NCBI RefSeq assembly: GCF_900112595.1 | Contig: NZ_FOMI01000005.1 | Location: 186,001 to 250,000, forward strand | Length of the DNA stretch: 64,000 nt | Direction: 5' to 3' | From: Algibacter pectinivorans | GTDB taxonomy: Bacteria > Bacteroidota > Bacteroidia > Flavobacteriales > Flavobacteriaceae | Shown: in pieces, positions 1,991 to 28,586 of the stretch | How the letters are laid out: every line of letters starts with the position of its first letter | Position numbering within the stretch: position 1 is the first letter of the stretch | Made by a program: the position numbers and the translations under genes | The notes under the pieces: generated by a model | What the model was told of the DNA's origin: nothing | The model's input: only the letters and a program-made list of their open reading frames with translations | The model's database searches: none

Positions 1991-2047
1991 TGTCCATGTA
2001 TATGCTTTTTTTGTCTATAGGTGGAGGGGCTTAATGCTGTAAATTTG
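1991..2047 (+). promoter_or_regulatory. putative AraC-type operator and -7 promoter element, PUL promoter 1
   Basis: Half-sites TGTCCAT (1991-1997) and TGTCTAT (2012-2018) are direct repeats with starts 21 bp apart, two helical turns, the spacing expected for an AraC-family dimer. An exact Bacteroidota -7 match, TAAATTTG, lies at 2040-2047, 28 bp after the start of the second half-site. The same geometry recurs at 11491-11547 and 28530-28586. It faces the SusE/F-like gene and would give a leader of about 155 bases. Confidence 0.6.
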
Positions 2048-2158
2048 TAAAATAACACTAAATTATTGTGTTATATTGTAAATAACGGCAAAATTTTATG
2101 ATATTGTTAATTATTGTAAGTTTAAGTAGGTCTTTTTTTTAGGAGTAAATTGTAAAAA

Positions 2159-2166
2159 TGTCTATG
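2159..2166 (+). promoter_or_regulatory. lone TGTCTATG half-site
   Basis: A single copy of the half-site found in the three paired operators, 44 bases before the first PUL gene. It has no partner 21 bp away on either side and no -7 box 28 bp downstream, so it may be an auxiliary site or chance. Confidence 0.25.
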
Positions 2167-2209
2167 TTTTGTTGTTGCCATGAATTGAATAAAACTAAAC
2201 AACTAAAAA

Positions 2210-3625
2210 ATGAAAAAAATGAAAACAAGTTTACTGTTTGTAGTCTGCATTGTTATGACTATAATGAGTTGTAATGATGAAGATGATTCTCAAGGAATAA
2301 ATTCTACCCCAGAGTTTATATCGTTTGTGGATGCTATTTCTTCTTTACCAGGTGAAACTCTTACTTTTGAAGCAGGAATTTCCGATCCGGCAGGAATTAA
2401 ATCGATTAATATTAAGTATGAGTCTTGGTTTTTAGATAAAACTATTTTTAAGGACTCTTTACCTGATGTTTATGAGTTGGCTTATGATTTTATAGTTCCC
2501 GATGATGCAGAGATGAATAGTGTGCATACTATTGTTATAACTGCATATAATGTAGGAGGGAATCAAATAACTAAAAATGTTGTGGTAACTTTAGATAAGG
2601 ATGTAACTAACCCAACGATACAAATTGTTAGCCCTACTAATCAATCAACAGTTTTAATAGGAGACGGTAATGAGATTGTATTGGATATTACTGTTTCTGA
2701 TGCAGAACTTGCTGAATTTAAAATTGAAAGTAGTGTTTTAAATGAAACTAAGGCGATTTCAGGTGAGACTTATAATTACATAAGAGCTTTAGATATAAGT
2801 ACTTTAGGTAACTATGAATTTGCAATAACTGTAACTGATGCCTCTGGGAATATAAGGACAGAAACAATATCAGTAAATGTGCTAGACGAATTGCTTTTTG
2901 AGGTTATGTATATTACAGATGTAACTAGTAATGCTGCTTTAAATGATGACTTGTTTGGTGTTCCTTATAGTACGATTGCTAGTACAGCTAGTACAGAAGA
3001 TGGTTATGTTTTTACAGGTAAATATTATTCTTCGACTCCTAATTCAGAAGTGAGATTTATTCCTCAACAAACCGCGTTCGAGCCCTATAGTTTTGGAGCG
3101 GATCCTAATGCTATGGGTGAATTGATTTTAGGTAATGATGCCTCAGTAAGTCCAATTGTTGTGCCTGGTGTTGGTTATTATGAAATAACTATGGATTTAA
3201 GAGATCAAAGTTATGTTGTAGAACCTTATGTGCCGATCGATACAGCTTTTGATCAAGTTTATGTTTTGGGTCGTGGTGTTTATCTAGACGCAACAAGCTC
3301 TACCTGCGTTGATAATTCAGATGGAAGTACAAGATGTTGGCACTTTTTGTCTGGAAAGCCTTTTATTCCAGATAGCAATAACCCGTATTTGTGGACTATA
3401 GATGTTACTGCTCAAGATCAACCTGATGATAATGGTGCTAATGGTTTTATATTAAATGCAAATCCAGAAGGTTGGGGTCCGTTTTGGAGAGTAGATGCCA
3501 ATGACCCGTCAGTAACAATACCTAATGCTGGAGCTAACTATGTTTTTGATGACAGTTCATTAAACAAGGATTATACTTTTGTGTTCGATACTCATTTAAA
3601 CAGACTCGTAGTGAAAAATAGATAA
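2210..3625 (+). CDS. SusE/SusF-like surface glycan-binding lipoprotein
   Basis: 471 residues. An SPII signal peptide ends at Cys21 (IMSC), followed by acidic residues NDEDD, the usual Bacteroidota surface-export context. Two Ig/cadherin-like domains follow: about residues 30-130 and 133-225, the latter starting NPTIQIVSPTNQSTV and ending with a TVTDASGN motif. The C-terminal half (about 228-471) resembles SusE/F outer-membrane domains, with GYVFTGKYY and YYEITMDLRDQSYVVEPY. It is likely to bind the target glycan at the cell surface beside SusC/SusD. It is the first gene of the PUL operon, 45 bp before susC. A second in-frame ATG lies three codons downstream. The role is inferred from position and architecture; sequence identity in this family is low. 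Confidence 0.75.
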   Translation: MKKMKTSLLFVVCIVMTIMSCNDEDDSQGINSTPEFISFVDAISSLPGETLTFEAGISDPAGIKSINIKYESWFLDKTIFKDSLPDVYELAYDFIVPDDAEMNSVHTIVITAYNVGGNQITKNVVVTLDKDVTNPTIQIVSPTNQSTVLIGDGNEIVLDITVSDAELAEFKIESSVLNETKAISGETYNYIRALDISTLGNYEFAITVTDASGNIRTETISVNVLDELLFEVMYITDVTSNAALNDDLFGVPYSTIASTASTEDGYVFTGKYYSSTPNSEVRFIPQQTAFEPYSFGADPNAMGELILGNDASVSPIVVPGVGYYEITMDLRDQSYVVEPYVPIDTAFDQVYVLGRGVYLDATSSTCVDNSDGSTRCWHFLSGKPFIPDSNNPYLWTIDVTAQDQPDDNGANGFILNANPEGWGPFWRVDANDPSVTIPNAGANYVFDDSSLNKDYTFVFDTHLNRLVVKNR

Positions 3626-3670
3626 AGAACTCTTGTAAATAAAAAAAATAACAAACAAACAACTAATTAA

Positions 3671-6600
3671 ATGAAACAAATAATTTTAATTATATTAGGA
3701 GTCCTTAGCTTTAGTTTTACGGCAGAAGCACAAAATATTATTGAAGGGACAATTACAGATAGCCAAGGGCAACCAATACCAGGGGTTAATGTTATAGAAA
3801 AAAACACGGTAAATGGTGTTGCCTCAGATTTTGATGGCAACTATACCATATCTACTAGAAACAACGCGATATTAGTATTTAGTTATATAGGTTATAAAAC
3901 ACAAGAAATTAGTGTAAATAGCAGAAGTAAAATACCAGTAATAATGGTAACTGACAATGCTAAGTTAGATGAAGTTGTGGTTATTGGTTATGGCTCAGTA
4001 GAAAAAGATAAAATTGCAACATCAATAGCTTCTATAGATGGTGAAGAAATATCTAAACAAGTAGCTAGTAATGCTGCTGAAGCGCTACAAGGAAAAGCAG
4101 CTGGTGTGCAGGTTTTGTCTTCTGGTGGGTCTCCAGGAGCATCGCCTAGAATTTTAGTGCGTGGTGTAACTACTATTTTAGGTAACTCGAGTCCTTTAAT
4201 AGTTGTAGATGGTGTATTGCAGCCAAGTGGCACTTCCTTAAATGCTGTGAACCCGCAAGATATAAGTAGTATGGATATTTTAAAGGATGCGGCAGCTTCT
4301 GCTATATATGGTTCTAGAGCTTCAAACGGTGTAATTCTAATTACTACAAAAAGAGGTAAGTCTGGTAAACCTGTAGTTAATTTTGATTTTAATTACGGTG
4401 TTCAGGGTTGGGATAGGATAGCAGTAGCCGATGCACAAGAGTATATAAGTGTTATTAATACTCGAAGAATAAATGATGGCACTGCACCACTTTATAATCC
4501 TGAAGACTATGGGGCAGGCACGGATTGGTGGAATGAGGTTGTTGAGGATTTTGCTCCAGTTGTTAATGCTAATTTAAGAGCGTCAGGAGGTAGTGAAAAG
4601 ATTAAATATGGCGCAAGTGTTAGTTTTTTCGATCAACAATCCAATTATAATAAAGGGTATTATCAAAGAGTTACAGGGCGTTTTAATATAGATTTTGAAC
4701 TATCGGATAGGGTTACTTTAAAACAGGATATTAGCCCTAGGTTTGAGAGCTATGAAAACACCCCTAATTTATTATTTAATACACTTAGGATAGACCCTTT
4801 AACACCTGTTTATGTTTCTCAAAGCGAACGAGTAGGGCGCAACGAATATAGTATTTTTGGTTTGTCAGAAAATTTGGTACCCAATCCAGTTGCGCAATTA
4901 GCAAGGCAGTTTACAGAAAACAAATTCTTTGGTTTGTTTTCTAATACCCAGTTAAATTTTAAAATAACACCAGACATAACTTTTACTTCTCAACTAGGTC
5001 TTAATGTAACGTCTTTAACATGGGAGGTTTTTAATCCTGAATATTTTATTGGGCCTAATCGTCAGAACGAAATTAATAACTATACTAAAAATGTAACTCA
5101 AAATTTTGATTACGTTGTTAATAATACAATAGCTTTTGATAAAACTATAAATAAAAAGCATTACTTAAATTTATTAGGTGGAATTCTGTTTGACTCAGAA
5201 AACACAAATTATTTACGTGGTTATGCCGATGGGCTTCCTAGTAATACCGACCAAAATTTATGGCAGTTAGACGCGGCAGAAGGCGAGACTATAAGAGCGT
5301 CAGGAAATCAGGGTACTCAAAATATACTTTCGGGTGTTTTTAGAACAATTTATAGCTATGATAGAAAGTATACAATTAACGCGTCAGTAAGAGTTGATCA
5401 GTCTTCTCGTTTTCCGAAAGAGAACAGGATAGGAATATTTTCTAGTGCCTCATTTGCTTGGGATGTCGATTCGGAAGATTTTTTCAAAAGTGAAACCGTA
5501 AATAATTTGCGACTTAAAATAGGAATAGGTGAAGTAGGTAATCAAAACATAAATAGAGACGGCGCAGATTTTACTATTGGTTCGGATGATTATGTTTTAG
5601 GGGGGCAGCGTGTGGTATCTAACTTCTTAGGGCAATTCGGAAACCCTAATTTAAAATGGGAAACCGTAAAAGATAAAAATTTTGGGTTTGATTTAGGGGT
5701 GTTTAATAATGAATTGACACTTTCTGCGGAGTACTATATTAAAACTTCTGAAGATTTATTAAATCAAGTTGAATTACCCAATTATACAGGTGTTCCAGGA
5801 ACGGTGGCTCAAAATGTAGGTAGTGTTGAATCAAAAGGTATTGATATAGCTTTAGGTTATAACAAAAAATGGAATGATTTTACTTTAGGACTTAATTTAA
5901 CTGTATCATCAAATGAAAGTAAAGCTGTGGAGTTAGCACCAGGTAATGAGTTGATTTTAGGACAAAGAAGACCTACTTTAGGGAATAGATTTGTAAAAAT
6001 AACTGAGTTAGGAGAGGTTGTGGGATTGTTTCAAGGGTACAAAACAGACGGTATCTTTCAAAACCAAACGGAGCTAAACTCACATACCTCTGAAAATGGA
6101 AAGGTTGTTCAGCCAAATGCACAAGTTGGGGATTTACGTTTTGTGGACCAAAACGGTGATGGTCAATTAAACGACGAAGACTTAGTGACTTTAGGAAACC
6201 CATTTCCAGATTTTTTTGGAGGTTTAAATCTAAATATGCAATATAAAAAGATAGATTTATCTATGCAATGGTATGGCACCTTCGGGAATGACGTGTATAA
6301 TGGTAATCTAGAATATATTCGAGCAGGTACACAAAATCTTAATGTGCTTGCTGGTACTACAGATGTTGTATGGACGCCAACAAATACAGATGCAAAATTT
6401 CCAAGACTAACAGAATTAGATAGAAATGGAAATTATAAGAATCCATCAGACCTTTTTATAGAGGATGGTTCTTATTTGAGATTGCGTAATATTCAGTTAG
6501 GGTATAACTTTGATGTTAAAGGTTTTCAAAAGTGTAGATTTTATGTTTCAGGGCAAAACCTTATTACAATTACAGACTATAGTGGTTTTGATCCTGAGGT

Positions 6601-6694
6601 TCAATCAGGTGGTATTATTGATGGTCTAGGAGTGGATTTTGGAAGAAACCCTGTATCCAAAACATATTTATTAGGACTAAATTTAACTTTATAA
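3671..6694 (+). CDS. SusC-like TonB-dependent outer-membrane glycan transporter
   Basis: 1007 residues, the usual SusC length. A Sec signal peptide (residues 1-20, ending EAQ) is followed by a carboxypeptidase-D regulatory-like domain (about 22-105: EGTITDSQGQPIPGVNV and FSYIGYKTQEI), the TonB plug (about 110-230: VVIGYGSVEKDKIATSIASI, the SusC motif LKDAAASAIYGSRASNGVI) and a 22-strand barrel to the C-terminus (ending YLLGLNLTL). It imports oligosaccharides into the periplasm using TonB energy, with the SusD partner encoded 5 bp downstream as lid. The tight spacing and conserved order mark this as the PUL core. No frameshift or truncation is seen. Confidence 0.95.
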   Translation: MKQIILIILGVLSFSFTAEAQNIIEGTITDSQGQPIPGVNVIEKNTVNGVASDFDGNYTISTRNNAILVFSYIGYKTQEISVNSRSKIPVIMVTDNAKLDEVVVIGYGSVEKDKIATSIASIDGEEISKQVASNAAEALQGKAAGVQVLSSGGSPGASPRILVRGVTTILGNSSPLIVVDGVLQPSGTSLNAVNPQDISSMDILKDAAASAIYGSRASNGVILITTKRGKSGKPVVNFDFNYGVQGWDRIAVADAQEYISVINTRRINDGTAPLYNPEDYGAGTDWWNEVVEDFAPVVNANLRASGGSEKIKYGASVSFFDQQSNYNKGYYQRVTGRFNIDFELSDRVTLKQDISPRFESYENTPNLLFNTLRIDPLTPVYVSQSERVGRNEYSIFGLSENLVPNPVAQLARQFTENKFFGLFSNTQLNFKITPDITFTSQLGLNVTSLTWEVFNPEYFIGPNRQNEINNYTKNVTQNFDYVVNNTIAFDKTINKKHYLNLLGGILFDSENTNYLRGYADGLPSNTDQNLWQLDAAEGETIRASGNQGTQNILSGVFRTIYSYDRKYTINASVRVDQSSRFPKENRIGIFSSASFAWDVDSEDFFKSETVNNLRLKIGIGEVGNQNINRDGADFTIGSDDYVLGGQRVVSNFLGQFGNPNLKWETVKDKNFGFDLGVFNNELTLSAEYYIKTSEDLLNQVELPNYTGVPGTVAQNVGSVESKGIDIALGYNKKWNDFTLGLNLTVSSNESKAVELAPGNELILGQRRPTLGNRFVKITELGEVVGLFQGYKTDGIFQNQTELNSHTSENGKVVQPNAQVGDLRFVDQNGDGQLNDEDLVTLGNPFPDFFGGLNLNMQYKKIDLSMQWYGTFGNDVYNGNLEYIRAGTQNLNVLAGTTDVVWTPTNTDAKFPRLTELDRNGNYKNPSDLFIEDGSYLRLRNIQLGYNFDVKGFQKCRFYVSGQNLITITDYSGFDPEVQSGGIIDGLGVDFGRNPVSKTYLLGLNLTL

Positions 6695-6699
6695 AAATT

Positions 6700-8280
6700 A
6701 TGAAAAAGATTGTATTATTTTTAACGATTATTACAGCACTAGTCTTTGTGGGGTGTGATAAAGAAGATTTTTTAGATCAGCCGGTTCAAGGCAAGCAAAC
6801 GTTGGATGATTTCTTTTCAAATGCCCAAAACGCAGAAAATTTTATCAATGGTATCTACAGAAAGATAAATGGAGAAAGTTGGTGGCAAGTTAATTTTCAG
6901 CGACAAATTAACGAAATGGCAACCGATGATAATTGGGCTGGTAATACGGAGCAACCTAGGCCAGATATTTTTGGAATAGCACAATACAACGTGTTTCCGG
7001 GTTCAACTTATTTTAATTCTTTTTGGGAAAGTCATTACATAGGAATTACACGTGCTAATATCGCTTTAGATCGTATTCCGGGTGTCGAAATTGACTTGGA
7101 GAAAAAAGAACAATATCTTGGCGAAGCCAAATTTATTAGGGCATTTTTCTATTTCGACTTAGTAAGGAATTTTGGAGGTGTACCAATAGTGTCTTCTTAC
7201 AATGAAATTTTGGACCCTTCAATTAATGACAAAACAAGAGCTTCAGTTGAAGATGTGTATGCGTTTGTAGAAGCAGATTTAAAAGAAGCTATAGGTAGTT
7301 TGCCAAGAAAAAGCGAGTATGCACCAACCGATTTAGGAAGGGCTACTAAGGGGGCGGCTCAATCCTTATTGGCTAAAGTTTACTTGTATCAAGAAAAATG
7401 GGATAAAGCGCAAACCATGGCTAAAACGGTAATGGATTCCGGTGAATATGCTTTGGAACCAGATTTTGCAAACCTTTATAAGGTAGGTTTTGCTCATGGT
7501 GTCGAATCAATTTTTGCAGTTGAGTTTATTAATAATCCAACATTTTCTGAGGTTGGAGGTCAATTCCCTATTACTAATGGTAGCCGTGGCGACCGTGGCT
7601 GGGGTTGGGGTTCACCTACAAGTGACTTAGAAAATGCTTTCTTGAGTGAAGGTGATAATATAAGGTTAAGGTCTACTATTATTAAGCATGGTGAGCCAGT
7701 ATTTGGAGATCCAGAGGTGTCCGAATTTGATGGGATACCATCTGAGAATAAATCAGGACGTACCAATAGAAAGTATTACACACCATTAGCAGATAGACCA
7801 GAGCCTTACGCAAGAGGTCAAATACCAGGACAGTACATTCATTTAAGGTTAGCCGATGTTATTCTTATTCATGCAGAGGCGGCGTATTTTAATGATGATG
7901 AAACCTCTGCACGAAACTCTATGAAATTGGTGAGAGATAGAGTTGGGTTAGATACTAATATGTCCTTATCCGGTACAGCTTTAAGGGATGCTATTTGGAA
8001 GGAAAGACGCTTGGAGCTTGCTTTAGAACAACAAAGACTTTATGATATTAGAAGACAAAAAATAAATGGTGTACCTAGAATAGCGTTAATACTAGGTCCA
8101 AACGGGTCTTTTGTTAAGTATAATACAGAAGAAAGTACAGACCCGTTTGAAACTACAAATCTTAAAGAGTCACAAGATAGTGGAGCCTTGTTTGATCCAA
8201 ATATCCATATGTTATGGCCTATTCCTCCGGAAGAAATTCAATTATCTAGAGGTAATATAAAGCAAAACCCAGGGTATTAA
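6700..8280 (+). CDS. SusD/RagB-family surface glycan-binding lipoprotein
   Basis: 526 residues. An SPII signal peptide ends at Cys19 (FVGC), then DKEDFLDQPVQG, the characteristic SusD start. The N-terminal SusD-like domain covers about 20-230 (FINGIYRKINGE; AKFIRAFFYFDLVRNFGGVP, a hallmark SusD helix) with TPR-like helices (SLLAKVYLYQEKWDKA). The C-terminal RagB/SusD domain includes LRLADVILIHAEAAYF and WKERRLELALEQQRLYDIRR, ending in IKQNPGY, the typical final motif. It caps the SusC barrel and captures oligosaccharide. It is 5 bp downstream of susC, surely in the same transcript. Confidence 0.95.
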   Translation: MKKIVLFLTIITALVFVGCDKEDFLDQPVQGKQTLDDFFSNAQNAENFINGIYRKINGESWWQVNFQRQINEMATDDNWAGNTEQPRPDIFGIAQYNVFPGSTYFNSFWESHYIGITRANIALDRIPGVEIDLEKKEQYLGEAKFIRAFFYFDLVRNFGGVPIVSSYNEILDPSINDKTRASVEDVYAFVEADLKEAIGSLPRKSEYAPTDLGRATKGAAQSLLAKVYLYQEKWDKAQTMAKTVMDSGEYALEPDFANLYKVGFAHGVESIFAVEFINNPTFSEVGGQFPITNGSRGDRGWGWGSPTSDLENAFLSEGDNIRLRSTIIKHGEPVFGDPEVSEFDGIPSENKSGRTNRKYYTPLADRPEPYARGQIPGQYIHLRLADVILIHAEAAYFNDDETSARNSMKLVRDRVGLDTNMSLSGTALRDAIWKERRLELALEQQRLYDIRRQKINGVPRIALILGPNGSFVKYNTEESTDPFETTNLKESQDSGALFDPNIHMLWPIPPEEIQLSRGNIKQNPGY

Positions 8281-8287
8281 TCTTTAA

Positions 8288-9931
8288 ATGAAATTTAGAA
8301 TTGAAACGATGTTAAAATTGAATAGGTATATTCTGTGTTTTCTAACTGTAGGAGTCTTGGCTGGATGTAGTGCTAACAGCACTACAGGTCCCAATGACCC
8401 CAAGTTTGATGTGCTGGAAGAAAGAGTAACCCTTAATTTACACAATTTATTTCAAGAAATAGATCATTTTGGAGCTTCAGGTGGTTTTCAGGACCAGTGG
8501 ATTGGGAAATGGCCTGAAACTTCTAAAAATCAAGTTGCTAAATTGCTTTTTAGTAGTGAAATGGATAGCCAGGGTAATCCCGAAGGTATTGGTCTCTCTT
8601 TATGGAGGACCATAATCGGTGATGGGGCTGCAGATCAATCTAATAGCGGTTTTTTTGCTTCCAATTGGTTTAGAGAAACAGAATGTTATCTAAACGCTAA
8701 TGGAAATTACGACTGGAGCAAGCAAAAAGGAGAGCAATGGTTTCTATCTAAAGCGAGAGAATATGGTGTGACAAAATTTACGGCCTGGGCGGGGACACCT
8801 CCTTATTTCATGACAAAAAATGGATACGTGTTTAGTACAGAAGAAGTCCCTAGTTTTAATTGCAAGGTAGATAAATATGATGATTATGCAAATTTTCTTG
8901 CCGACGTATTAAAAAACTATGAAAACCAGGGGTATAACTTTGAAACAGTGTGTCCGTTTAATGAAACACAATACGAATGGAATTCCGATGTTGGAAGTGC
9001 TCAACAGTCAGGAACTAAGGCATCGAACTCAGAAGTTGCAGCTGTTACGAGAATCATTGATAGTGTTTTTAGTAAAAAAAATATTAACACTAAAATAATG
9101 ATTCCAGAGGCAGCTCAACTAAAGTATTTGTTTGAAGGTACGAATAATACTTCAAACCAGGTAAGTGAGTTTTTTAATAGTTCAAGTGCTAATTATATTG
9201 GAGATTTAGACAATATCTCAAAACATGTAGCTGCACATAGTTATTGGAGTAATGAAACTACGAGTGAGTCTTTAAGACAACGAAAATCTTTAAAAACGAC
9301 ATTATCAAGTTATGGATTAGATTATTGGCAAACAGAATATAGTTTGCTTGGTACAGCCTACCAACAAGGAAAAGATCCTTCTGTTTTAAAAGAAATTGAT
9401 TATGCTTTGTGGTTAAGCCGTATCATTCATACTGATTTAGTATTTGGCAACGCAACAGGGTGGAGTTTTTGGACAGCATTAAATCAATCTACTTATGGTG
9501 ATCATCCCTTTCGGTTTAACCTTGTTTTGTATCAACCTAACTCTAATGGTTCATTTCATACAGATGGCACTTACAAGGAAAATAAACTTCTTTGGGCACT
9601 TGGTAATTTTAGCCGATTTGTAAGACCTGGTATGGTTCGTTTTGAAGTTTTAAATCCAGAATATAGCGATAATACTTCAGTAGAAAATTTTATGATTTCA
9701 GGCTATAGAAGTACAGTTAGCAACGATTTAGTTTTAGTATGTATTAATAATACAGATAATAATAAAGCTATTTCCTTTAAAAATTACACTAAAGACTTTG
9801 AATTGGTGGGAGATACATTTAATACCTATACCACGTCAACAATAAATAATTTAAAAAAAGCTTCCGTGGCATATGATGCTATATCAATTCCTGCTAAATC
9901 TATTGTAACGTTAAAGGGAGAGCTCAATTAG
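8288..9931 (+). CDS. GH30-like glycoside hydrolase lipoprotein
   Basis: 547 residues. An SPII lipobox VLAGC gives Cys27; an alternative ATG at 8309 would leave a signal peptide of normal length. After a Ser/Thr/Pro/Asp tether comes a clan GH-A barrel of GH30 type: FQEIDHFGASGGF at about 55-67, a probable acid/base Glu226 in CPFNETQ and probable nucleophile Glu350 in YWQTEY. The C-terminal part (about 430-547) resembles the beta-sandwich attached to GH30 barrels. It is paralogous to the enzyme at 11588, sharing GNPEGIGLSLWR versus GSPKGIGLSIWR and the WTAL segment. Substrate and GH30 subfamily are unresolved; beta-galactan, beta-fucoside or other beta-linked chains are possible. It lies 7 bp after susD, so it belongs to the core operon, and is probably surface-exposed. 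Confidence 0.8.
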   Translation: MKFRIETMLKLNRYILCFLTVGVLAGCSANSTTGPNDPKFDVLEERVTLNLHNLFQEIDHFGASGGFQDQWIGKWPETSKNQVAKLLFSSEMDSQGNPEGIGLSLWRTIIGDGAADQSNSGFFASNWFRETECYLNANGNYDWSKQKGEQWFLSKAREYGVTKFTAWAGTPPYFMTKNGYVFSTEEVPSFNCKVDKYDDYANFLADVLKNYENQGYNFETVCPFNETQYEWNSDVGSAQQSGTKASNSEVAAVTRIIDSVFSKKNINTKIMIPEAAQLKYLFEGTNNTSNQVSEFFNSSSANYIGDLDNISKHVAAHSYWSNETTSESLRQRKSLKTTLSSYGLDYWQTEYSLLGTAYQQGKDPSVLKEIDYALWLSRIIHTDLVFGNATGWSFWTALNQSTYGDHPFRFNLVLYQPNSNGSFHTDGTYKENKLLWALGNFSRFVRPGMVRFEVLNPEYSDNTSVENFMISGYRSTVSNDLVLVCINNTDNNKAISFKNYTKDFELVGDTFNTYTTSTINNLKKASVAYDAISIPAKSIVTLKGELN

Positions 9932-19892: not shown

Positions 19893-22800
19893 ATGAGAAC
19901 TGTAAAAGCCTGGGAAGAAAAAGTAATTATTCCTACTTATGAAGTTGGAACTCCTGAAAAATATCCTGTTTTTTTGGAAAAGCGCGTATATCAAGCTAGT
20001 AGTGGTGCTGTTTATCCGCATCCTGTAATAGAAAAAATTAGTGACACTAAAGTCGATAAAGAATGGAATGCCATTTTTATTGAAAACGACTATATAAAGT
20101 TAATGATTTTACCCGCCTTAGGAGGAAGAATCCAAAGAGCGTATGATAAAATTAGAAAGCGTGATTTTGTATATTATAATCATGTAATTAAACCTGCGCT
20201 TGTAGGTTTGACAGGACCGTGGATTTCTGGAGGCATAGAATTTAACTGGCCACAACATCACAGACCAAGTACTTACGATCCAACAGATTTTTTTATTGAA
20301 CATAATGAAGATGGTAGTAAAACAGTTTGGGTAAGCGAATTAGAGCGTATGTTTCGTACTAAAGGTATGGCAGGTTTTACATTACATCCAGATAAAGCCT
20401 ATATTGAAATTAAAGCACATTTATATAACAGGACGCCACATCCTCAAACATTTTTATGGTGGGCGAATCCTGCGGTAGCGGTAAACGACCATTATCAGTC
20501 CGTTTTTCCACCAGATGTAAATGCAGTATTTGACCACGGTAAACGAGATGTATCTGAATTTCCAATAGCAAAAGGCGAATATTACAAAGTAGATTATTCT
20601 CCTGGGACAGATATATCTAGATATAAAAATATTCCGGTACCAACAAGTTATATGGCTATCACATCTAAATATGATTTTGTTGGTGGTTATGAAAATGATT
20701 CAAAAGGCGGCTTGTTACATGTTGCAGACCACAATGTATCTCCAGGGAAAAAACAATGGACTTGGGGTAATGGCGAGTTTGGGAAAGCATGGGATAGAAA
20801 TTTAACAGATAAAGATGGACCATATATTGAATTGATGTGTGGTGTTTACACAGATAATCAACCTGATTTCTCTTGGATGCATCCGTATGAAGAAAAAAGC
20901 TTTAAGCAATATTTTATGCCTTATTATAACGTAGGTGTTGTAAAAAATGCAACTAAAGAAGCTTTAGTAAATCTTGAAATGGTGGATGGTAAAGCGTTAA
21001 TAAAAGTTTATGTAACGTCTACCTATGATAATTGTATAGTAACATTAAAAGCAGAAAATAAAGTGTTACACGACGAGGTTTTAAATCTTTCGCCAGAAAT
21101 AGGATTTGAAAAAGCTATAGATATTAAGCATTTTAAGTTTAACGATTTACAAATTTCGGTTAATGATAGTGCAGGAAAAGTATTAGTAGCATGGGAGCCA
21201 GACAAAGATTTATCTGAAGAAATTCCTGAGCCTGCAAAAGCTGCTAAAGACCCAAAGGATATTGATACCGTTGAAGGGTTGTATTTAAGAGGATTACATT
21301 TAGAGCAGTATAGGCATGCCACTTTTAATGCAACAGATTATTATGAAGAAGCGTTAAAAAGAGTGCCAACTGATGTGCGTTGTAATAACGCCATGGGACT
21401 TTGGTGCATGCGTAAAGGGCAATTAGAAAAGGCTATCGGGTATTTTGATACTGCTATTGAAACGTTAACAAGCCATAACCCAAACCCGTATGATGGAGAA
21501 CCGTATTTTAACAAGGGATTAGCTCTTAATTATTTGGGGAAAAAGGATGAAGCTTATGCAAGTTTCTTTAAATCGTGCTGGAATGCACAATGGCAAGATG
21601 CAGGTTATTTTAATCTAGCTCAGATAGACTGTTCTAAAGGTGATTTAGAGAAAGCTTTAGATTTGGTAGATAGAGCTTTAATTAAAAACTGGCATAACCA
21701 TAAAGCGAGACATTTAAAAGTTATTATTTTAAGAAAACAGGGTAGTGTTGAAGCTGCTAGCAAATTGATAGAAGAGTCCTTAGTTATTGATAAATTTAAT
21801 TTTGGCGTTTTATTCGAGCGTTACATTTTGTCAAGAAAACAAGCAGATTTAGAGGCTTTCAAAAGTATTTTAAGAGATTATACACATAATTACATAGAGT
21901 TTTCTTTGGATTATGCTATGGCTGGTCAGTATGATGAAGCTATTGCCTTATTAAAAGTGCATACTAATGCTAATGATAGCGTGTATCCAATGGTACACTA
22001 CTTTATGGGGTGGTATTTTACTCAAAATGGAAATGATGCTAATGCATTAGCTGCTTACAAAAAAGCATCGAAAATGCCAGATACCTATTGTTTTCCTAAT
22101 AAAATAGAAGAAGTTTTAGCGTTACAATCGGCTTGTAAAGCAAACCCTGTTGATGCCAAAGCATTTTACTACTTAGGAAACTTTTGGTACGCTAACAGAC
22201 AATATAAAAAAGCTCAAGACTGTTGGGAAACTTCTGTTAAATTAGATGATGGTTTCGCTATTACACACCGTAATTTGGCATTATTATATTACAATAAAAC
22301 AAACCAAAAAGAATTAGCAGTAATGCATTTAGAAAAAGCTTTTCAGCTTGATAATACAGATGCTAGATTATTAATGGAGTTAGACCAACTGTATAAGAAA
22401 ATCAATATTTCAGTTGATAAACGTTTAGCGCTATTAGAACAATATATAGAATTAACAAATTCTAGAGATGACTTATACTTAGAGCGTATTTCACTGTATA
22501 ATTTGAAAGGGGAATTCGAAAAAGCAAAGGAATTGATAGAAAATCGTCAGTTTCATCCTTGGGAAGGTGGTGAAGGTAAAGTGCCTTTTCAATATTTAAC
22601 AGCTTATACCGAACTTGCAAAGAAAAATATTAACTTAAAAAACTTTGATTACGCAATTAAGCTGTTAGAAGCAACAAAAACCTATCCTCATAATTTAGGA
22701 GAAGGGAAGTTACACGGTACTGTTGAAAATGATATTGACTACTGGTTAGGTTGCGCTTATGAAGGCTTAGGGAATTCTAACAAAGCAAAGGCTTATTTTG

Positions 22801-23189
22801 AATTAGCGTCAGAAGGTTTAAGTGATCCAAGTCCTGCGATTTTTTATAATGACCAACAGCCAGATAAAATTTTCTATCAAGGTTTGGCCTTACAAAAATT
22901 AGGGAAATTAAAGGAAGCAAATATAAGGTTTAATAATTTGTTAAATTACGGAAAAGCTCATATTAATGATAATGTTAAGTTGGATTATTTTGCAATTTCA
23001 TTGCCAGATTTATTGATATGGGAAGAAGACTTAAATGTAATTAACAAAATACATTGTAACTTTTTAATAGGACTAGGGCAATTAGGTTTTGGTAAAAGTG
23101 CTGAGGCCACTAAAGCATTTACGAAAGTAATACAAACTAATTTATGTCATATCCCAGCAAATATTCATGCAGAATTGGTAAATGCTTAA
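19893..23189 (+). CDS. cytosolic DUF5107-TPR protein
   Basis: 1098 residues with no signal peptide, so probably cytosolic, unlike its secreted neighbours. The N-terminal ~410 residues match my memory of DUF5107 proteins, which have an aldose-mutarotase-like beta-sandwich look: LMILPALGGRIQRAYDKIRK, GPWISGGIEFNWPQHHRPS, HPQTFLWWANPAVAVND. The remainder (about 430-1098) is a long tetratricopeptide repeat solenoid (for example GLWCMRKGQLEKAIGYFDTA and FYYLGNFWYANRQYKKAQDC). The conserved acidic/His/Trp positions in the first domain suggest a carbohydrate-active or sugar-binding role, but I know of no firm function. Spacing in the operon is 37 bp after the GH2 and 11 bp before the sulfatase. Confidence 0.75.
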   Translation: MRTVKAWEEKVIIPTYEVGTPEKYPVFLEKRVYQASSGAVYPHPVIEKISDTKVDKEWNAIFIENDYIKLMILPALGGRIQRAYDKIRKRDFVYYNHVIKPALVGLTGPWISGGIEFNWPQHHRPSTYDPTDFFIEHNEDGSKTVWVSELERMFRTKGMAGFTLHPDKAYIEIKAHLYNRTPHPQTFLWWANPAVAVNDHYQSVFPPDVNAVFDHGKRDVSEFPIAKGEYYKVDYSPGTDISRYKNIPVPTSYMAITSKYDFVGGYENDSKGGLLHVADHNVSPGKKQWTWGNGEFGKAWDRNLTDKDGPYIELMCGVYTDNQPDFSWMHPYEEKSFKQYFMPYYNVGVVKNATKEALVNLEMVDGKALIKVYVTSTYDNCIVTLKAENKVLHDEVLNLSPEIGFEKAIDIKHFKFNDLQISVNDSAGKVLVAWEPDKDLSEEIPEPAKAAKDPKDIDTVEGLYLRGLHLEQYRHATFNATDYYEEALKRVPTDVRCNNAMGLWCMRKGQLEKAIGYFDTAIETLTSHNPNPYDGEPYFNKGLALNYLGKKDEAYASFFKSCWNAQWQDAGYFNLAQIDCSKGDLEKALDLVDRALIKNWHNHKARHLKVIILRKQGSVEAASKLIEESLVIDKFNFGVLFERYILSRKQADLEAFKSILRDYTHNYIEFSLDYAMAGQYDEAIALLKVHTNANDSVYPMVHYFMGWYFTQNGNDANALAAYKKASKMPDTYCFPNKIEEVLALQSACKANPVDAKAFYYLGNFWYANRQYKKAQDCWETSVKLDDGFAITHRNLALLYYNKTNQKELAVMHLEKAFQLDNTDARLLMELDQLYKKINISVDKRLALLEQYIELTNSRDDLYLERISLYNLKGEFEKAKELIENRQFHPWEGGEGKVPFQYLTAYTELAKKNINLKNFDYAIKLLEATKTYPHNLGEGKLHGTVENDIDYWLGCAYEGLGNSNKAKAYFELASEGLSDPSPAIFYNDQQPDKIFYQGLALQKLGKLKEANIRFNNLLNYGKAHINDNVKLDYFAISLPDLLIWEEDLNVINKIHCNFLIGLGQLGFGKSAEATKAFTKVIQTNLCHIPANIHAELVNA

Positions 23190-23200
23190 GTTTTATAGAA

Positions 23201-24718
23201 ATGAATTATAAATTCCATTTTAAAAGTGCATTGTTTATATTGCTATTAACAGCCAATTATTTTGCACACTCACAAAAAGAAAAACCTAATATCGTCATCA
23301 TTTACGTTGACGACTTAGGATTTGGCGATATTGGAGTAAACGGTGCTGTTGGAGTTAAAACACCAAATATTGATACCCTTGCGGAAAATGGATTGAATTT
23401 TACCGATGCCCATTGTAGTGCATCAACATGTACACCATCTCGTTATTCATTGTTAACTGGTAGTTACGCGTTTAGAAATAATGCTGCCATTTTAGAAGGC
23501 GATGCGCCTTTAATTATAGACACCACAAAGGAAACCTTACCAAAAATGTTACAAAAAGCAGGTTACACTACGGGCGTAGTTGGTAAGTGGCATTTAGGTT
23601 TAGGAAAAGGAAAAATAAACTGGAATAAACGCATTCCCTTAGGTCCAAAGGAAGTTGGATTTGATTATAGTTTTTTAATTCCCGCTACTGGAGATAGAGT
23701 ACCGTGTGTATTTTTAGAAAATCAGAAAGTAGTGGGGTTAGATTTAAATGATCCTATTACGGTAAGTTATGGTGCAAGAATTGAAGGGTATCCTTGGGGT
23801 TTTAAGCATCCAGAATTACTAAAACAACATACAGACCCTTATCATCAAGGTGCTGTTATAAATGGTATCAGTCGTATTGGGTATATGAAAGGTGGAAAAG
23901 ATGCCCTTTGGATTGATGAAGACATTCCGTTTGTACTTTCAGAAACAGCAAATGGTTTTATAGAAGACCATAAAGACAATGCATTTTTTTTATATTTCTC
24001 ATTACACGATATTCATCAACCAAGAATAGCTAATATTAAATTTGTGGAAAGTAGTACCATGGGACCACGAGGCGATGTTATTGCTCAAATGGATTGGTGT
24101 GTTGGTCAGGTAACCCAGAGCTTAAAGAAAGCAAATGTTCTAGAAAACACTTTAATTATTTTTACAAGTGATAACGGACCTATTTTGGATGATGGCTATT
24201 TAGATTATGCAAGAGAACTCGTGGGAGAACATAAACCAGCTGGAATTTATAGAGGTTCAAAATATTCGGTTTATGAGGCAGGAACAAGAATGCCAACCAT
24301 TGTGCATTGGCCAAAAAAAGTAAAGCCAGGTGTAAGTGATGCGTTGTTATCTCAAGTAGATTTATATAAATCTTTAGCTTGCTTAGTAGGTCAAGATGTT
24401 GAAAAAGGAGCTGCGCCAGATAGTCAAGATTTTTTAAAATCGTGGTTAGGGAAATCCCAAAAAGGGCGAGAGATTTTACTAGAAGAAGCTTATACTTATG
24501 GATTAAGAATGGGGAATTGGAAATATATAAAGCCTAAAAATAAACCAGTACCTAATTGGATAGTTCAAAAATTTGTGGATCCTGGATTTAGTGAAGAAGT
24601 ACAACTATTCAATTTAGAAGATGACCCTTCCGAAAGTAATAATGTTTATAAATATCACCCAGACATTGTTAAAGTCATGGAAAGTGAATTAGTAAAAATC
24701 ATGAAACGAAAAAGTTAA
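23201..24718 (+). CDS. S1 family arylsulfatase, secreted (sulfatase 2)
   Basis: The start is chosen at the ATG at 23201, which gives a Sec signal peptide (FKSALFILLLTANYFAHSQ) and leaves an 11 bp gap from the previous gene; the longer frame from 23144 overlaps it and adds 19 residues before the signal. About 505 residues. Sulfatase hallmarks: VIIYVDDLGFGD, Cys77 in CTPSRYSLLTG (formylglycine site), GKWHLGLGKG, and the C-terminal metal-binding TSDNGP. Unlike sulfatase 1 it has no lipobox, so it is probably periplasmic. The sequence is clearly distinct from the other two sulfatases, suggesting a different S1 subfamily and sulfate position. Confidence 0.9.
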   Translation: MNYKFHFKSALFILLLTANYFAHSQKEKPNIVIIYVDDLGFGDIGVNGAVGVKTPNIDTLAENGLNFTDAHCSASTCTPSRYSLLTGSYAFRNNAAILEGDAPLIIDTTKETLPKMLQKAGYTTGVVGKWHLGLGKGKINWNKRIPLGPKEVGFDYSFLIPATGDRVPCVFLENQKVVGLDLNDPITVSYGARIEGYPWGFKHPELLKQHTDPYHQGAVINGISRIGYMKGGKDALWIDEDIPFVLSETANGFIEDHKDNAFFLYFSLHDIHQPRIANIKFVESSTMGPRGDVIAQMDWCVGQVTQSLKKANVLENTLIIFTSDNGPILDDGYLDYARELVGEHKPAGIYRGSKYSVYEAGTRMPTIVHWPKKVKPGVSDALLSQVDLYKSLACLVGQDVEKGAAPDSQDFLKSWLGKSQKGREILLEEAYTYGLRMGNWKYIKPKNKPVPNWIVQKFVDPGFSEEVQLFNLEDDPSESNNVYKYHPDIVKVMESELVKIMKRKS

Positions 24719-24758
24719 TTTGATGTGATATTTTAGAATAACCTTTAAAATTTTTCTT

Positions 24759-27554
24759 ATGAAACATAATAATAGTATACTAGTTTTTTTAATCGTATTC
24801 TCTTTTTTAAGCAGTTGTAAAGAACCAGAAGTCAATATGATTGATATCTCTGGAATATGGTCTGTACAGTTGGATTCAACAAATGTTGGAGTTACAGAAA
24901 ACTGGGCTTCTAATAAGCTTTCAGGTACTCCTATTACATTGCCAAATACCTTGGATGGTGCAGAAATTGGAACACCAAGTACGTTAGAGCCAGCATTAAA
25001 TAATTATGTAATGTCTAACCTAACACGAAAGCATCAATATATTGGTAAAGCTTGGTATCAAAAGGAAATTGAAATACCAACAGCATGGAATGACAAAAAT
25101 ATAGAGTTAGGTTTAGAGCGTATTATCTGGGAATCTTCAGTGTATGTAGATGGTAAGCTTATAGGTCGTGCTAATAGTTTGGTAGGGCGTCATAATTACA
25201 ATTTAAGTAAAAATTTAACCCCTGGAAAGCATTTACTAACCATTTGCATAGATAATTCAAACAAATTTCCGCTAATAAATGTTGCTGGAAGTATGTATCC
25301 AGATGTTGTAAATCAGGACATGGCGCATGCTTATACTAACCATACTCAAATTAAATGGAATGGTATACTGGGTGATATTACATTAGTTGCATCTGTAAAA
25401 AATGCACCAGAGAATGTACAGGTGTATCCAAACAAGCAACTAGATAAATTAAAGGTGGTTTTTAATCAATCTGAGGCTATTAAAGGAGTTGTTAGCTTAG
25501 TAGTTAAGTCTGTTGATGGTGTTGAAGTTTTTAACGATAATGTTAAAACTTCAAAAACTTCAAATAATAGCTATGCTATAGAAATTGATAAACCAAAAAA
25601 GTTGGAGTTATGGGATGAGTTTAATCCAAACCTTTATGATGTTAGCGTAATAACAAAGACCGGAGAAGCTAGCGCACGTTTTGGGTACAAGTTTGTAAGT
25701 AGTAACAAGGGTGATTTATTGCTTAATGATACGCGTATTTTTTTACGAGGAAATTTAGAGTGTGTTATTTTTCCTTTAACAGGGCATCCACCAACAGAAA
25801 AAGAAGATTGGGCCAAATTAATTAAACAAGCCAAAGATTACGGGTTAAACCACTTACGTTTTCATTCTTGGTGTCCACCAAAAGCAGCATTTGAGGCAGC
25901 CGATGAAGCAGGGTTTTATGTTCAAGTAGAGCTACCACATTGGAGTTTAAAAGTAGGTGAAGATGCTAAAACTACCGCGTTTTTAAAAGCTGAAGCTGAT
26001 AAAATATTGAAAGATTACGGTAACCATCCATCATTTATATTTATGGCTTTAGGTAATGAATTGCAAGGTGATATTAGTGTGTTAAATGATATAGTAGCAA
26101 ATTTAAAACCTAAAGATGATAGACATTTGTATGCTACAACGGCATTTTCTTTTCAGCAACCAACAGGAACGAGACCCGAACAAGAGGATGAGTTTTTTAT
26201 AGCGCAATGGACAGATAAAGGTTGGATTCGAGGACAAGGTATTTTTAATGCTAAACCGCCACATTTTGATGCTGATTATACCTCAGGTAGTGAGCATATA
26301 AACATGCCGTTAGTGTCTCATGAAATTGGGCAGTATTCTGTGTATCCAGATATGAGTGAAATTGAAAAATATACAGGTGTTTTAAAACCTTTAAATTTTA
26401 TTGCTGTAAAAAATGATTTAGATAAAAAAGGACTTTTAGATTTAGCTCCAGACTTTACATATAACTCTGGTAAGTTAGCAGCATTATTATACAAAGAAGA
26501 AATAGAGCGGGCGTTAAAAACGCCGAGTTTTGATGGTTTTCAATTGCTTCAATTACAAGATTTTCCTGGGCAAGGTACAGCATTGGTTGGTTTGCTAAAT
26601 GCTTTTTGGGAGTCTAAAGGGGTTATTTCGGCTGAAGAATTTAGTCAATTTAATAGTGAATTAGTACCATTAATTAGATTTAAAAAGGCTGTTTATGAAT
26701 TTGGAGAAACTTTTGAAGCCTCTATAGAGATAGCAAATTTCTACAAACAGTTAAACAGTCAGGCTATAGATTGGATAATTACAGATGAATCTGGTAACGA
26801 AATTAAAAAAGGAAGTTTTAATAACATTAATTTGTCTATTGGAAATAACACAAATTTGGGCACTATTAATTATGCTGTTGAAACTAAAGCAGCGAAAAAG
26901 CTAACAGTTACGGTAAGTTTAAATAATACGAAATATAAAAATAGCTGGAATATTTGGGTGTACCCAAAAGAAGTTTCAACAACGTCGAGTCATGTTTTAA
27001 TAACATCATCAATTAATCAGGCAATAAAAGCTTTAAGCGAAGGAAAAAAAGTGTTGTTAAATCCAGATCCAAAAACCTTAAAAGGAATCACAGGTCGTTT
27101 CGTTCCTGTATTTTGGAGTCCTGTGCATTTTCCTAATCAGCCAGCTACAATGGGCGTGATGTTAGATGAAAAGCACCCTGTATTTAATAAATTCCCGACC
27201 GATTCTCATACCAATTGGCAGTGGTGGGATTTATGTATTAATTCAAAATCTATCATTACAGATTCTATAAATGTTAAACCTTTAGTGCGTGTTATAGATA
27301 ATTTTGTAACCAACCACCATTTAACCAGTTTATTTGAAGCTAAAGTAGGGAAAGGGCAATTGGTGTTTTCGTCCATAGATTTATCATCAAAATTAAAAGA
27401 AAGGCCAGTGGCAAGACAGTTGATAAGTAGTGTTTTAGAGTATATGGAAAGTAAAGATTTTGCCCCTGTAAACGATATTACAATTGAAGATTTGAAAGCC
27501 TTGAAAATAGAAGGTAAACAATCTGACTTTTCAGCAAAGGATATATATAAATAA
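24759..27554 (+). CDS. GH2-family glycoside hydrolase lipoprotein (paralogue B)
   Basis: 931 residues. An SPII signal ends at Cys20 (LSSC). The domain order is as in the GH2 at 17015: jelly roll (about 30-210), Ig-like domain, GH-A barrel with acid/base Glu434 in LGNELQG and nucleophile candidate Glu522 in SHEIGQYSVYP, then beta and alpha/beta C-terminal domains ending near VFSSIDLSSKL. The two proteins share long stretches such as LNHLRFHSWCPP versus LNHMRFHSWCPP and EKYTGVLKP versus SKYTGVLKP, so they arose by duplication, but the acid/base context differs (NELQ versus NEPS), which may mean different linkages. It lies 40 bp after sulfatase 2. Confidence 0.85.
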   Translation: MKHNNSILVFLIVFSFLSSCKEPEVNMIDISGIWSVQLDSTNVGVTENWASNKLSGTPITLPNTLDGAEIGTPSTLEPALNNYVMSNLTRKHQYIGKAWYQKEIEIPTAWNDKNIELGLERIIWESSVYVDGKLIGRANSLVGRHNYNLSKNLTPGKHLLTICIDNSNKFPLINVAGSMYPDVVNQDMAHAYTNHTQIKWNGILGDITLVASVKNAPENVQVYPNKQLDKLKVVFNQSEAIKGVVSLVVKSVDGVEVFNDNVKTSKTSNNSYAIEIDKPKKLELWDEFNPNLYDVSVITKTGEASARFGYKFVSSNKGDLLLNDTRIFLRGNLECVIFPLTGHPPTEKEDWAKLIKQAKDYGLNHLRFHSWCPPKAAFEAADEAGFYVQVELPHWSLKVGEDAKTTAFLKAEADKILKDYGNHPSFIFMALGNELQGDISVLNDIVANLKPKDDRHLYATTAFSFQQPTGTRPEQEDEFFIAQWTDKGWIRGQGIFNAKPPHFDADYTSGSEHINMPLVSHEIGQYSVYPDMSEIEKYTGVLKPLNFIAVKNDLDKKGLLDLAPDFTYNSGKLAALLYKEEIERALKTPSFDGFQLLQLQDFPGQGTALVGLLNAFWESKGVISAEEFSQFNSELVPLIRFKKAVYEFGETFEASIEIANFYKQLNSQAIDWIITDESGNEIKKGSFNNINLSIGNNTNLGTINYAVETKAAKKLTVTVSLNNTKYKNSWNIWVYPKEVSTTSSHVLITSSINQAIKALSEGKKVLLNPDPKTLKGITGRFVPVFWSPVHFPNQPATMGVMLDEKHPVFNKFPTDSHTNWQWWDLCINSKSIITDSINVKPLVRVIDNFVTNHHLTSLFEAKVGKGQLVFSSIDLSSKLKERPVARQLISSVLEYMESKDFAPVNDITIEDLKALKIEGKQSDFSAKDIYK

Positions 27555-27630
27555 ATATAATACTTATCAAAACAACATGATTTAAGATGTTTATTTTAAG
27601 TGTGTTGTGGTAGTCTTAAAAATTATAATT

Positions 27631-28512
27631 ATGAATAAAAGGAAAAATTATTTTAATGGTATAGCACTTGTTTTTAGTTTTTTTTTATTGGCTTTTATGT
27701 TTTTCGCTTGTAGCGGAGATAATAGTACTTCGTCAGACGACGAGAAATTTAATGACGACGATAAAAACCCGGATGAAGTTGCTAAGCCTTTATTAAATTC
27801 TGTAAACACAAGTGGTTGGGTATTAATGTTCGAGGATAACTTTGATAAATTTGAGCCTACAAAATGGACTAAAAATAATTCAGTTAAAAGTAGAGCGGGA
27901 AGACCAAATATAGGAATTACGCAATGGTTTTGGAAACCAGAAAATGTAAGTTATGAAGATGGGAATGTGGTGTTAAAAAGCTTAAAAGTCAGTGATAATA
28001 CATTGCATTGCGGCTCTATATATTCTAATAACTTATTTGAGTTTAAGTATGGCTACATTGAAGCAAAAATTGATATTGCAGAAACTATGTTTGGAACACA
28101 TACAGCGCTTTGGCTTCAAGGTGATAATATGGGAAATGTTGATGGCACAGGGAATGACGGTGCAGAAATAGATGTATTCGAATCGGCTTGGGTTGGTAAT
28201 TTTACTAAAAGTGTAGTACATATAGATGGTTATGGTGCTTCAAAAAAAGCAAATACAAGGCGATATGAAACACCAGGGATACATTCAGGCTATCATACTT
28301 ATGGGCTTTTATGGAACGAAGATAAACTAGAAGTCTATTACGATGGTCAATTCATGACGCGTTATCAAGGTATATGGGTTCCAAAAGTTGAAGAATTCTT
28401 GTGGCTTTCTACTGGGGCTAGTTTTGGAGGAACAGCAGATTTTACATCAAGAGCTATTGGAGCGTCTACAGAAGCTAAAGTAGATTATATTCGAGTTTGG
28501 AAAATGAATTAG
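27631..28512 (+). CDS. GH16-family endo-glycanase lipoprotein
   Basis: The start is set at the ATG at 27631, giving 293 residues with a lipobox FFAC (Cys27); an in-frame GTG at 27607 is less likely. A Ser/Asp-rich tether with the sequence SSDDEKFNDDDKN follows. The GH16 beta-jelly-roll spans about 60-293: WVLMFEDNFDKFEPTKWT near the start and the catalytic motif ExDxxE as GAEIDVFES (nucleophile Glu179, Asp181, acid/base Glu184), ending VDYIRVWKMN. GH16 enzymes are endo-acting on beta-1,3/1,4 glucans or galactans (laminarin, agar, porphyran, carrageenan); this one could open the backbone at the cell surface. The subfamily cannot be fixed by eye. It is followed by a terminator hairpin. Confidence 0.9.
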   Translation: MNKRKNYFNGIALVFSFFLLAFMFFACSGDNSTSSDDEKFNDDDKNPDEVAKPLLNSVNTSGWVLMFEDNFDKFEPTKWTKNNSVKSRAGRPNIGITQWFWKPENVSYEDGNVVLKSLKVSDNTLHCGSIYSNNLFEFKYGYIEAKIDIAETMFGTHTALWLQGDNMGNVDGTGNDGAEIDVFESAWVGNFTKSVVHIDGYGASKKANTRRYETPGIHSGYHTYGLLWNEDKLEVYYDGQFMTRYQGIWVPKVEEFLWLSTGASFGGTADFTSRAIGASTEAKVDYIRVWKMN

Positions 28513-28529
28513 TAGGTAAAAAGTGTTTT

Positions 28530-28586
28530 TGTCTATGTATTGGTAATCTTAGTCCATTTAAACGTTTGTTTAATGGACTATTTTTA
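28530..28586 (+). promoter_or_regulatory. putative AraC-type operator and -7 element, PUL promoter 3
   Basis: Half-sites TGTCTAT (28530-28536) and AGTCCAT (28551-28557) start 21 bp apart, and a 7-of-8 match to TAnnTTTG, TATTTTTA, sits at 28579-28586, exactly 28 bp after the second half-site start, as in the other two promoters. The second half-site and the -7 element overlap the terminator hairpin at 28550-28585, so this call is weaker than the other two. It would drive the T9SS gene at 28618. Confidence 0.45.
28550..28585 (+). terminator. rho-independent-like terminator after the GH16 gene
   Basis: Left arm TAGTCCATT-AAAC (28550-28563, one bulged T) pairs with right arm GTTTAATGGACTA (28568-28580) across a GTTT loop and is followed by TTTTT. 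It separates the GH16 gene from the T9SS gene and overlaps the putative promoter 3. Confidence 0.7.

Follow-up and report, generated by a model that had tools for sequence, protein, structure and literature searches.

Does one AraC-family regulator control several separate units of a polysaccharide utilization locus (PUL) through a shared operator? The question is raised by a 64-kb stretch of Algibacter pectinivorans DNA (the window, to which all coordinates refer), in which the gene for such a regulator (998-1885, minus strand) lies beside a PUL. The initial annotation had described three intergenic regions in which 7-bp half-sites stand in tandem, with starts 21 bp apart and a TAnnTTTG-type -7 box starting 28 bp after the second half-site, and had proposed that a dimer of the adjacent AraC binds there. 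These coordinates and spacings were all reproduced exactly: the half-sites start at 1991/2012, 11491/11512 and 28530/28551, and they are followed at that distance by TAAATTTG, TAGTTTTG and TATTTTTA (28579-28586), respectively (Table 1). The computational evidence presented here indicates that the pairs very probably represent a conserved operator and a small regulon of the adjacent AraC.

The pattern WGTCYAT-N14-WGTCYAT has exactly three matches in the window, namely these three sites, compared with a mean of 0.02 and a maximum of 1 in 100 shuffles; the three tandem pairs are genuine and not a product of chance. The whole 3.65-Mb genome contains five exact matches, three of which are those in the window; the other two (L001 and L005) lie outside the cluster, have no TAnnTTTG at offset 28 or 29, and were rejected. 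With up to one mismatch allowed, the genome contains 17 pair matches, versus 35 for a reversed-pattern control, which speaks against any wider enrichment. Because it is not enriched genome-wide at one mismatch, the heptamer pair alone is a weak signature, and it was abandoned for genome-wide searches in favor of a profile. Single TGTCYAT heptamers are frequent (26 in the window; shuffle mean 14.24).

The predicted operator is conserved upstream of araC orthologues

A homologue search yielded 52 loci, 19 of which (L049-L067) contain AraC orthologues with 63-86% identity, the other 33 being at 27-39%. The orthologue loci belong to named Flavobacteriaceae (Algibacter, Polaribacter, Winogradskyella, Hyunsoonleella, Seonamhaeicola, Wenyingzhuangia, Galbibacter and others), the nearest being L049 from an uncultured Algibacter, and they include close relatives, for example L050 and L057. 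Exact pairs at a spacing of 14 occur nine times in these 19 loci, compared with four times in total for 34 other spacings. Using a matrix built from 11 seeds, and scoring each locus with its own seeds removed (leave-one-locus-out), we found a site of at least 28.6 bits upstream of AraC in all 19 orthologue loci, within ~390 bp of the araC start.

The consensus of 36 sites, aAGTAnTATtRTCCATrTtTannnTTTTtnTGTCTATTTnT followed by TAnnTTTG, contains two features absent from the initial annotation, a box A (AGTAnTAT) before half-site 1 and a T-tract between the half-sites. Columns -8 to -1 (box A) hold ~11 bits, as much as either heptamer, with the qualification that the matrix helped to pick these sites. 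The pairs themselves stand as first described, but their shared letters needed correction: most first half-sites read NRTCCAT and most second ones NGTCTAT, and box A lies upstream. As judged from its predicted layout, the element is an araI-like operator of ~40 bp, longer than two heptamers, in which box A, N7 and box B are directly repeated at 21 bp beside a promoter, as in araI-type tandem operators.

The position of the -7 box was examined in 53 sites, of which 35 came from the window and the named loci (at least 21.7 bits) and 18 more from the PUL blocks described below; the -7 box columns played no part in choosing them. In 38 of the 53 sites TAnnTTTG starts at offset 28 or 29 from half-site 2, and it starts at no other offset from 7 to 79; the shorter TAnnTTT is found at offset 28/29 in 47 of them. 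Orthologue-locus matches were kept at 21.7 bits or above, and weaker ones were dropped, among them L057 9423 (19.0 bits), L063 11167 (16.6 bits), and L049 10007 and 9878.

Operator profile and regulator gene occur together

A sequence-only profile, R1, was trained on 22 sites from orthologue loci, with the window excluded, and 397 genomes of the family were searched under strict filters, taking the best AraC candidates (up to six) and profile candidates (up to 12) per genome; the counts below are among the matches listed. At E<=1e-5, R1 has 20 matches in 12 of the 397 genomes, each of which also belongs to the 37 genomes in which AraC has a match at E<=1e-50, and these 12 comprise all nine genomes with at least 61% AraC identity and three with 44-53%. 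Among the matches listed, no R1 match at E<=1e-5 occurs in the 360 genomes lacking an AraC match or in the other 25 of the 37 AraC-bearing genomes. All 20 matches share a contig with the AraC gene, at a distance of at most ~52 kb; the first match off the AraC contig (G328:C4) has an E value of 3e-5. Four of the 12 genomes (G161, G123, G328 and G381) are of training species, and the other eight contributed no training site. The matches at E<=1e-5 all lie on the contig of AraC or of a 44-53% homologue, and this co-occurrence, together with the sites in 19/19 orthologue loci, makes the AraC encoded at 998 the likely regulator.

Extent of the predicted regulon

Scanning of ten PUL blocks (the window and nine genomes) with the matrix at a threshold of >16 bits gave 31 sites. 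Position was tested for 22 of them (18 block sites uncounted in the named loci and four window sites), and all 22 are located outside open reading frames of at least 200 amino acids, with a same-strand start 80-409 bp downstream. A site stands in front of the SusE/F-position gene in all seven blocks possessing this gene and in front of GH30b, the GH30 gene behind a 9967-type gene, in six of seven; in G328, GH30b directly follows GH30a with no site between. Sites were also found before other susC genes (G161, G346, G385 and G123) and before a 35070-type or GH16 unit (the window and G161, as well as L060 in the orthologue-locus scan). The gene for a protein with a type IX secretion system (T9SS) tail has a site in front in four of the seven blocks with such a gene (window, 17.1 bits; G006, 17.5; G328, 19.0; G011, 26.5).

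Sites accompany AraC although gene content differs widely between loci. The susCD unit and the GH30-sulfatase-MFS-DUF5107-GH2-GH16 unit can firmly be assigned to the regulon, 35070-38159 probably belongs to it, and the T9SS/LacZ unit possibly does. The small regulon initially proposed is borne out for the susCD core and the second GH30 unit, whereas its third member, the T9SS gene, is weak, its site overlapping a hairpin, yet the non-sister genomes G328 and G011 have such a site. Regulon membership, including that of units distant from the regulator, could be read from sequence.

Site 3 itself is weak, with 21.7 bits in the orthologue-locus matrix and, in the PUL-block scan, 17.1 bits in the window and 17.5 in the sister genome G006, compared with 39.9 bits at site 1 and 41.1 at site 2 of the window and 35.9 at site 1 of the sister; it is not among the R1 matches listed. 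After the GH16 stop, TAGTCCATT...AATGGACTA plus T5 folds (28545-28585) at -13.1 kcal/mol (z -5.89). The left arm of this hairpin contains half-site 2, the U-run makes up most of the "-7 box", and the stem is preserved in the sister with one G-U wobble. These points count against an operator, and we give even odds that site 3 is instead the GH16 terminator, with half-site 2 as its left stem and half-site 1 a coincidence or relic. On the other side, all boxes of site 3 are exactly spaced, its box A and half-site 1 are nearly identical in the sister, sites precede T9SS-tail genes in G328 and G011 as noted above, and a simple terminator scan of 28400-28700 reported none. A second hairpin (UAGGUAAAAAGUGUUUUUGUCUA, 28510-28540) lies just upstream of the terminator-like one and overlaps half-site 1.

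Promoter context and proposed mechanism

The flavobacterial sigma-A promoter has a -33 TTTG element. Its -7 box is placed at -12 to -5 in the available portion of PMC9723704, which puts half-site 2 at roughly -40 to -34 and half-site 1 further upstream, at -61 to -55. This araI-like layout supports the earlier suggestion that tandem half-sites of the AraC type, two turns of the helix apart, are placed at the -33 region. The promoters have the TAnnTTTG -7 box of sigma-A (38/53 sites at offset 28/29); a -33 element is mostly absent, TTTG being found in 3/47 and TTG in 6/47 promoters in the interval 18-22 bp before the -7 box.

We propose that the sites are operators of AraC 998-1885, to which a dimer would bind with one monomer per half-site; the two half-sites, each made of box A, a 7-bp gap and box B (TCCAT/TCTAT), are direct repeats 21 bp apart. 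Since half-site 2 lies over the -33 region, AraC carrying its ligand likely takes the place of the -33 element that most of these promoters lack, and it would bring sigma-A polymerase to TAnnTTTG, as in class II activation. A galactose-type sugar, which would be imported by the major facilitator superfamily (MFS) porter, is the probable inducer. We put the probability of this reading, a ligand-bound, activating AraC dimer at these sites, at roughly 0.8; binding, activation, the ligand and the limits of the operons are what we infer here.

Several observations weigh against it. Among the 31 block sites, window 11611 (18.7 bits in the orthologue-locus scan and 16.1 in the PUL-block scan) is located within GH30 and was discarded as an operator, and two others (G006 2388 and G123 74) overlap the araC start. 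The gap before GH30b in the sister G006 has no site. Where the AraC homologue is less than 61% identical (28 genomes), three genomes have an R1 match at E<=1e-5 among the matches listed, and in G346 the R1 matches are 7-52 kb from AraC, none adjoining it. Half-site 2 of site 4 is degenerate (GATCAAT in the window, GATTAAT in the sister). Finally, a repressor could sit at the same position.

In ten loci (L029, L031, L033, L034, L039, L040, L050, L057, L062 and L063), the araC start ATGGAY, read on the opposite strand, is itself half-site 1 (NRTCCAT), and box A lies within the coding sequence. Because half-site 1 coincides with the araC start, autoregulation is predicted. Three of these loci (L031, L033 and L034) lack an in-register -7 box, and a further locus, L036, shows the overlap more weakly; window site 1 is ~100 bp upstream of the araC start, not on the start codon.

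Coverage of the -33 region by half-site 2, and of the araC start codon by half-site 1 in those ten loci, would also suit an AraC that represses until relieved by its ligand. We regard such repression as improbable: -33 TTTG is mostly missing (3/47), as expected of activator-dependent promoters, and, according to the accessible text of PMC5698469, Zobellia grew more slowly on carrageenan when the AraC-family regulator of its carrageenan PUL, which may or may not be related to AraC 998, was deleted. Similarly improbable is that the tandem sites serve another regulator, such as the second AraC (38393-39235) or an unlinked hybrid two-component system (HTCS) regulator, with AraC at 998 a bystander travelling with the cluster: the window does contain that second gene, with homologues near PULs in G381 and G346, and co-inheritance of the whole cluster would yield equal co-occurrence, but the sites remain beside the first AraC in loci of other gene content (G030, G258, G170, G162, G028 and G256), half-site letters vary with the helix of its helix-turn-helix (HTH) 2 (HTH2; see below), and the 360 genomes without a first-AraC match have no R1 match at E<=1e-5 among those listed.

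Features of the cluster

Sites 1 and 2 are firm as predicted operators. Operator 1 scores 38.9 bits with the orthologue-locus matrix and 39.9 in the PUL-block scan (profile E 6.3e-13), and operator 2 scores 39.4 and 41.1 bits (E 9.5e-9). The initial annotation lacked both the hairpin overlapping site 3 and a weaker fourth site at 38239 on the minus strand, which scores 26.9 and 28.2 bits (E 0.0175). Unit 2 was treated as a single unit on gene order alone. In unit 1, DUF4625 is the sole Pfam match of the SusE/F-position protein, and the 9967-11481 protein has none.

Table 1. Features of the AraC-associated cluster in the window
Feature	Position	Strand	Basis
AraC-family regulator, 295 aa, cupin-type ligand domain and two-HTH DNA-binding domain	998..1885	-	Pfam PF02311, PF12833; HTH2 aligned with E. 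coli AraC 2k9s
Putative operator 1 (SusE/F-position gene, susCD): TGTCCAT 1991-1997, TGTCTAT 2012-2018	1981..2021	+	matrix and profile
-7 box TAAATTTG of operator 1	2040..2047	+	motif TAnnTTTG
Unit 1: SusE/F-position protein, SusC, SusD, GH30, 9967-11481 protein	2210..11481	+	Pfam
Putative operator 2 (second GH30 unit): half-sites 11491-11497, 11512-11518	11481..11521	+	matrix and profile
-7 box TAGTTTTG of operator 2	11540..11547	+	motif TAnnTTTG
Unit 2: GH30, sulfatase, MFS sugar porter (14835-16235), GDSL, GH2, DUF5107-TPR (19893-23189), sulfatase, GH2, GH16	11588..28512	+	Pfam
Putative operator 3 (T9SS-tail gene), weak: half-sites 28530-28536, AGTCCAT 28551-28557	28520..28560	+	matrix
Terminator-like hairpin TAGTCCATT/AATGGACTA and T5	28550..28585	+	folding
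Unit 3: T9SS-tail protein, LacZ-type GH2, sulfatase	28618..34250	+	gene content
Putative operator 4, upstream of 35070-38159: TATCCAT 38239-38233, GATCAAT 38218-38212	38183..38249	-	matrix, profile
-7 box TAACTTTA of putative operator 4	38190-38183	-	motif
Unit 4: BNR-repeat T9SS protein (35070-38159), fn3/SusE-like protein (34348-35067)	34348..38159	-	annotation

Two GH2 proteins resemble the exo-beta-1,4-galactosidase BT4151, at 1184 and 798 bits (under the 1500 cut-off). This likeness, with GH30, GH16 and three sulfatases, suggests a sulfated or branched beta-galactan as the substrate. Beside the galactan PUL, 39391-44325 (+) holds an operon resembling one for hydroxyproline catabolism (DHDPS-type, aldehyde dehydrogenase, proline-racemase-type epimerase and DAO), and the second AraC-family gene (minus strand) adjoins it; homologues are also found close to the PUL in G381 and G346. 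As an idea only, this operon could point to hydroxyproline-rich arabinogalactan proteins as food.

The regulator and its distant relatives

The regulator belongs to the AraC/XylS family (PF12833, 63.6 bits; PF02311, 53.7 bits; both over the cut-off). It falls outside the E. coli AraC equivalog NF007860 (NCBIfam; 108.3 bits versus a cut-off of 208), and it is not an HTCS, having 295 aa with cupin-type and HTH domains only in Pfam.

In 11 family loci of 12 kb each with AraC homologues at 35-53% (L160-L170), an MFS porter or DUF5107-TPR (tetratricopeptide repeat) homologue is present in ten and a close SusC (>800 bits) in three. The porter and/or DUF5107-TPR likewise occurs in 25 of the 33 loci L068-L100, neither being found in L068, L070, L075, L076, L078, L080, L087 and L096, and SusC above 100 bits occurs in six of the 33. 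The steadiest neighbours of distant AraC homologues are the sugar porter and DUF5107-TPR, not susCD/GH30, making DUF5107-TPR, an uncharacterised protein, a possible ancestral target. DUF5107-TPR lies near AraC in 23 of the 33 loci, from Bacteroidota, Paenibacillus and a Sphaerochaeta metagenome-assembled genome (MAG). The window and Paenibacillus DUF5107 proteins are 52% identical; the structure model is poor in the N-terminal domain (predicted local distance difference test, pLDDT, <50 over 186-317).

When ~400 bp upstream of AraC were scanned with the flavobacterial matrix, against 200 shuffles each, p<=0.05 was reached in 20/29 (L020-L048), 19/19 (L049-L067), 23/33 (L068-L100) and 11/21 (L172-L192) loci. 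The counts for L020-L067 and L068-L100 are not independent, because the sets contain close relatives; L020-L023 duplicate L051, L063, L055 and L061 and were left out of the tree and helix table, though retained in these counts. The p=0.01 of L067 is in the wrong register because the scanned stretch was too short for its known site (-383), and L032 is also in a shifted register. In Bacteroidales loci the pair reads TTTACAT-N14-NTTACAT or NTGCAT, and a TAnnTTT box follows at 28/29. TTTACAT pairs have p>0.05 in L077, L082, L085 and L099, and p=0.04 in L095. In nine of ten Paenibacillus loci, L078 lacking it, AATCCAT-N14-CGTCAAT lies in a conserved ~45-bp stretch with more variable flanks; by eye, TAAAGT follows half-site 2 at ~29 bp and TATAAC/TAGAAC at ~35 bp, leaving the -10 position ambiguous. 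The predicted operator geometry recurs in both Bacteroidales and Paenibacillus.

Among homologues with p<=0.05, an HTH2 helix with YFSR goes with TCCAT in 50/53 and one with HFSK goes with TACAT in 7/7, so that regulator helix and operator letters may be traceable across phyla. Three points limit this correspondence: the site-picking matrix favors TCCAT, which helps the YFSR count and works against the HFSK count; the pattern amounts to one event, since the HFSK proteins form one group in the AraC tree (drawn without L100, whose helix is HFSK); and no site was seen in L189 and L190, both HFSK. In the Spirochaetales MAG L087, which has an AraC homologue, a 37.5-bit operator-like site (4364, minus strand) precedes a URO-D-type gene next to an efflux operon; it is the top score in the set used there as background, and its target is not a sugar gene.

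A tentative history, to which we would give somewhat less than an even chance, is that this AraC has long governed a unit of sugar porter and DUF5107-TPR, and that its operator has kept a layout matching araI of E. coli, and often its letters, between Bacteroidota and Paenibacillus. PULs acting on complex galactans would then have been built by attaching a ready-made operator to new units, and where half-site 1 is the start codon, selection on the operator would shape the N-terminus and force autoregulation.

Comparison with known systems

In E. coli AraC, HTH2 reads box B. The E. coli half-site is TAGC-N7-TCCATA in the part of PMC4514859 available, and, by our reading of the primer table in PMC2893085, araI I1 and I2 stand 21 bp apart. 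Split in the same way, window site 1 is AAGT-N7-TCCATG-N4-TGCT-N7-TCTATA, the araI1-araI2 layout as far as these excerpts describe it, and the HTH2 helices are alike (DDQLYFSRVFK versus NDPLYFSRIFK). The systems differ in that box A letters are not the same, the window promoter is of the Bacteroidota -7 type, and the window regulator lies beside a PUL.

Bacteroides HTCS, which have an AraC-type HTH, use operators with direct repeats averaging 21 bp in the accessible sections of Ravcheev et al. (2013, PMC3878776), a likeness in spacing. Unlike the 295-aa one-component AraC, they are hybrid two-component proteins with a periplasmic sensor, histidine kinase and receiver. CgrA (ZGAL_3159) of the Zobellia carrageenan PUL is likewise an AraC-type regulator of a marine flavobacterial PUL, with a positive role by deletion and no operator described in the text examined (Ficko-Blean et al. 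2017, PMC5698469), and direct repeats are reported for a Vibrio XylR-like regulator in the excerpt of PMC12125979. In the literature searched, whose coverage mostly excludes subscription papers, we found no operator that belongs to a one-component AraC regulator from a flavobacterial PUL. The initial annotation, which knew of no description of the site, holds for this specific operator within that literature; its kind had already been described, in the available parts of the sources above, for the HTCS direct repeats and E. coli AraC half-sites. The architecture is already known from both systems. This predicted operator adds a new member with an unusually long evolutionary reach, and it offers a predictable target for a one-component regulator of the AraC type in marine Bacteroidota PULs.

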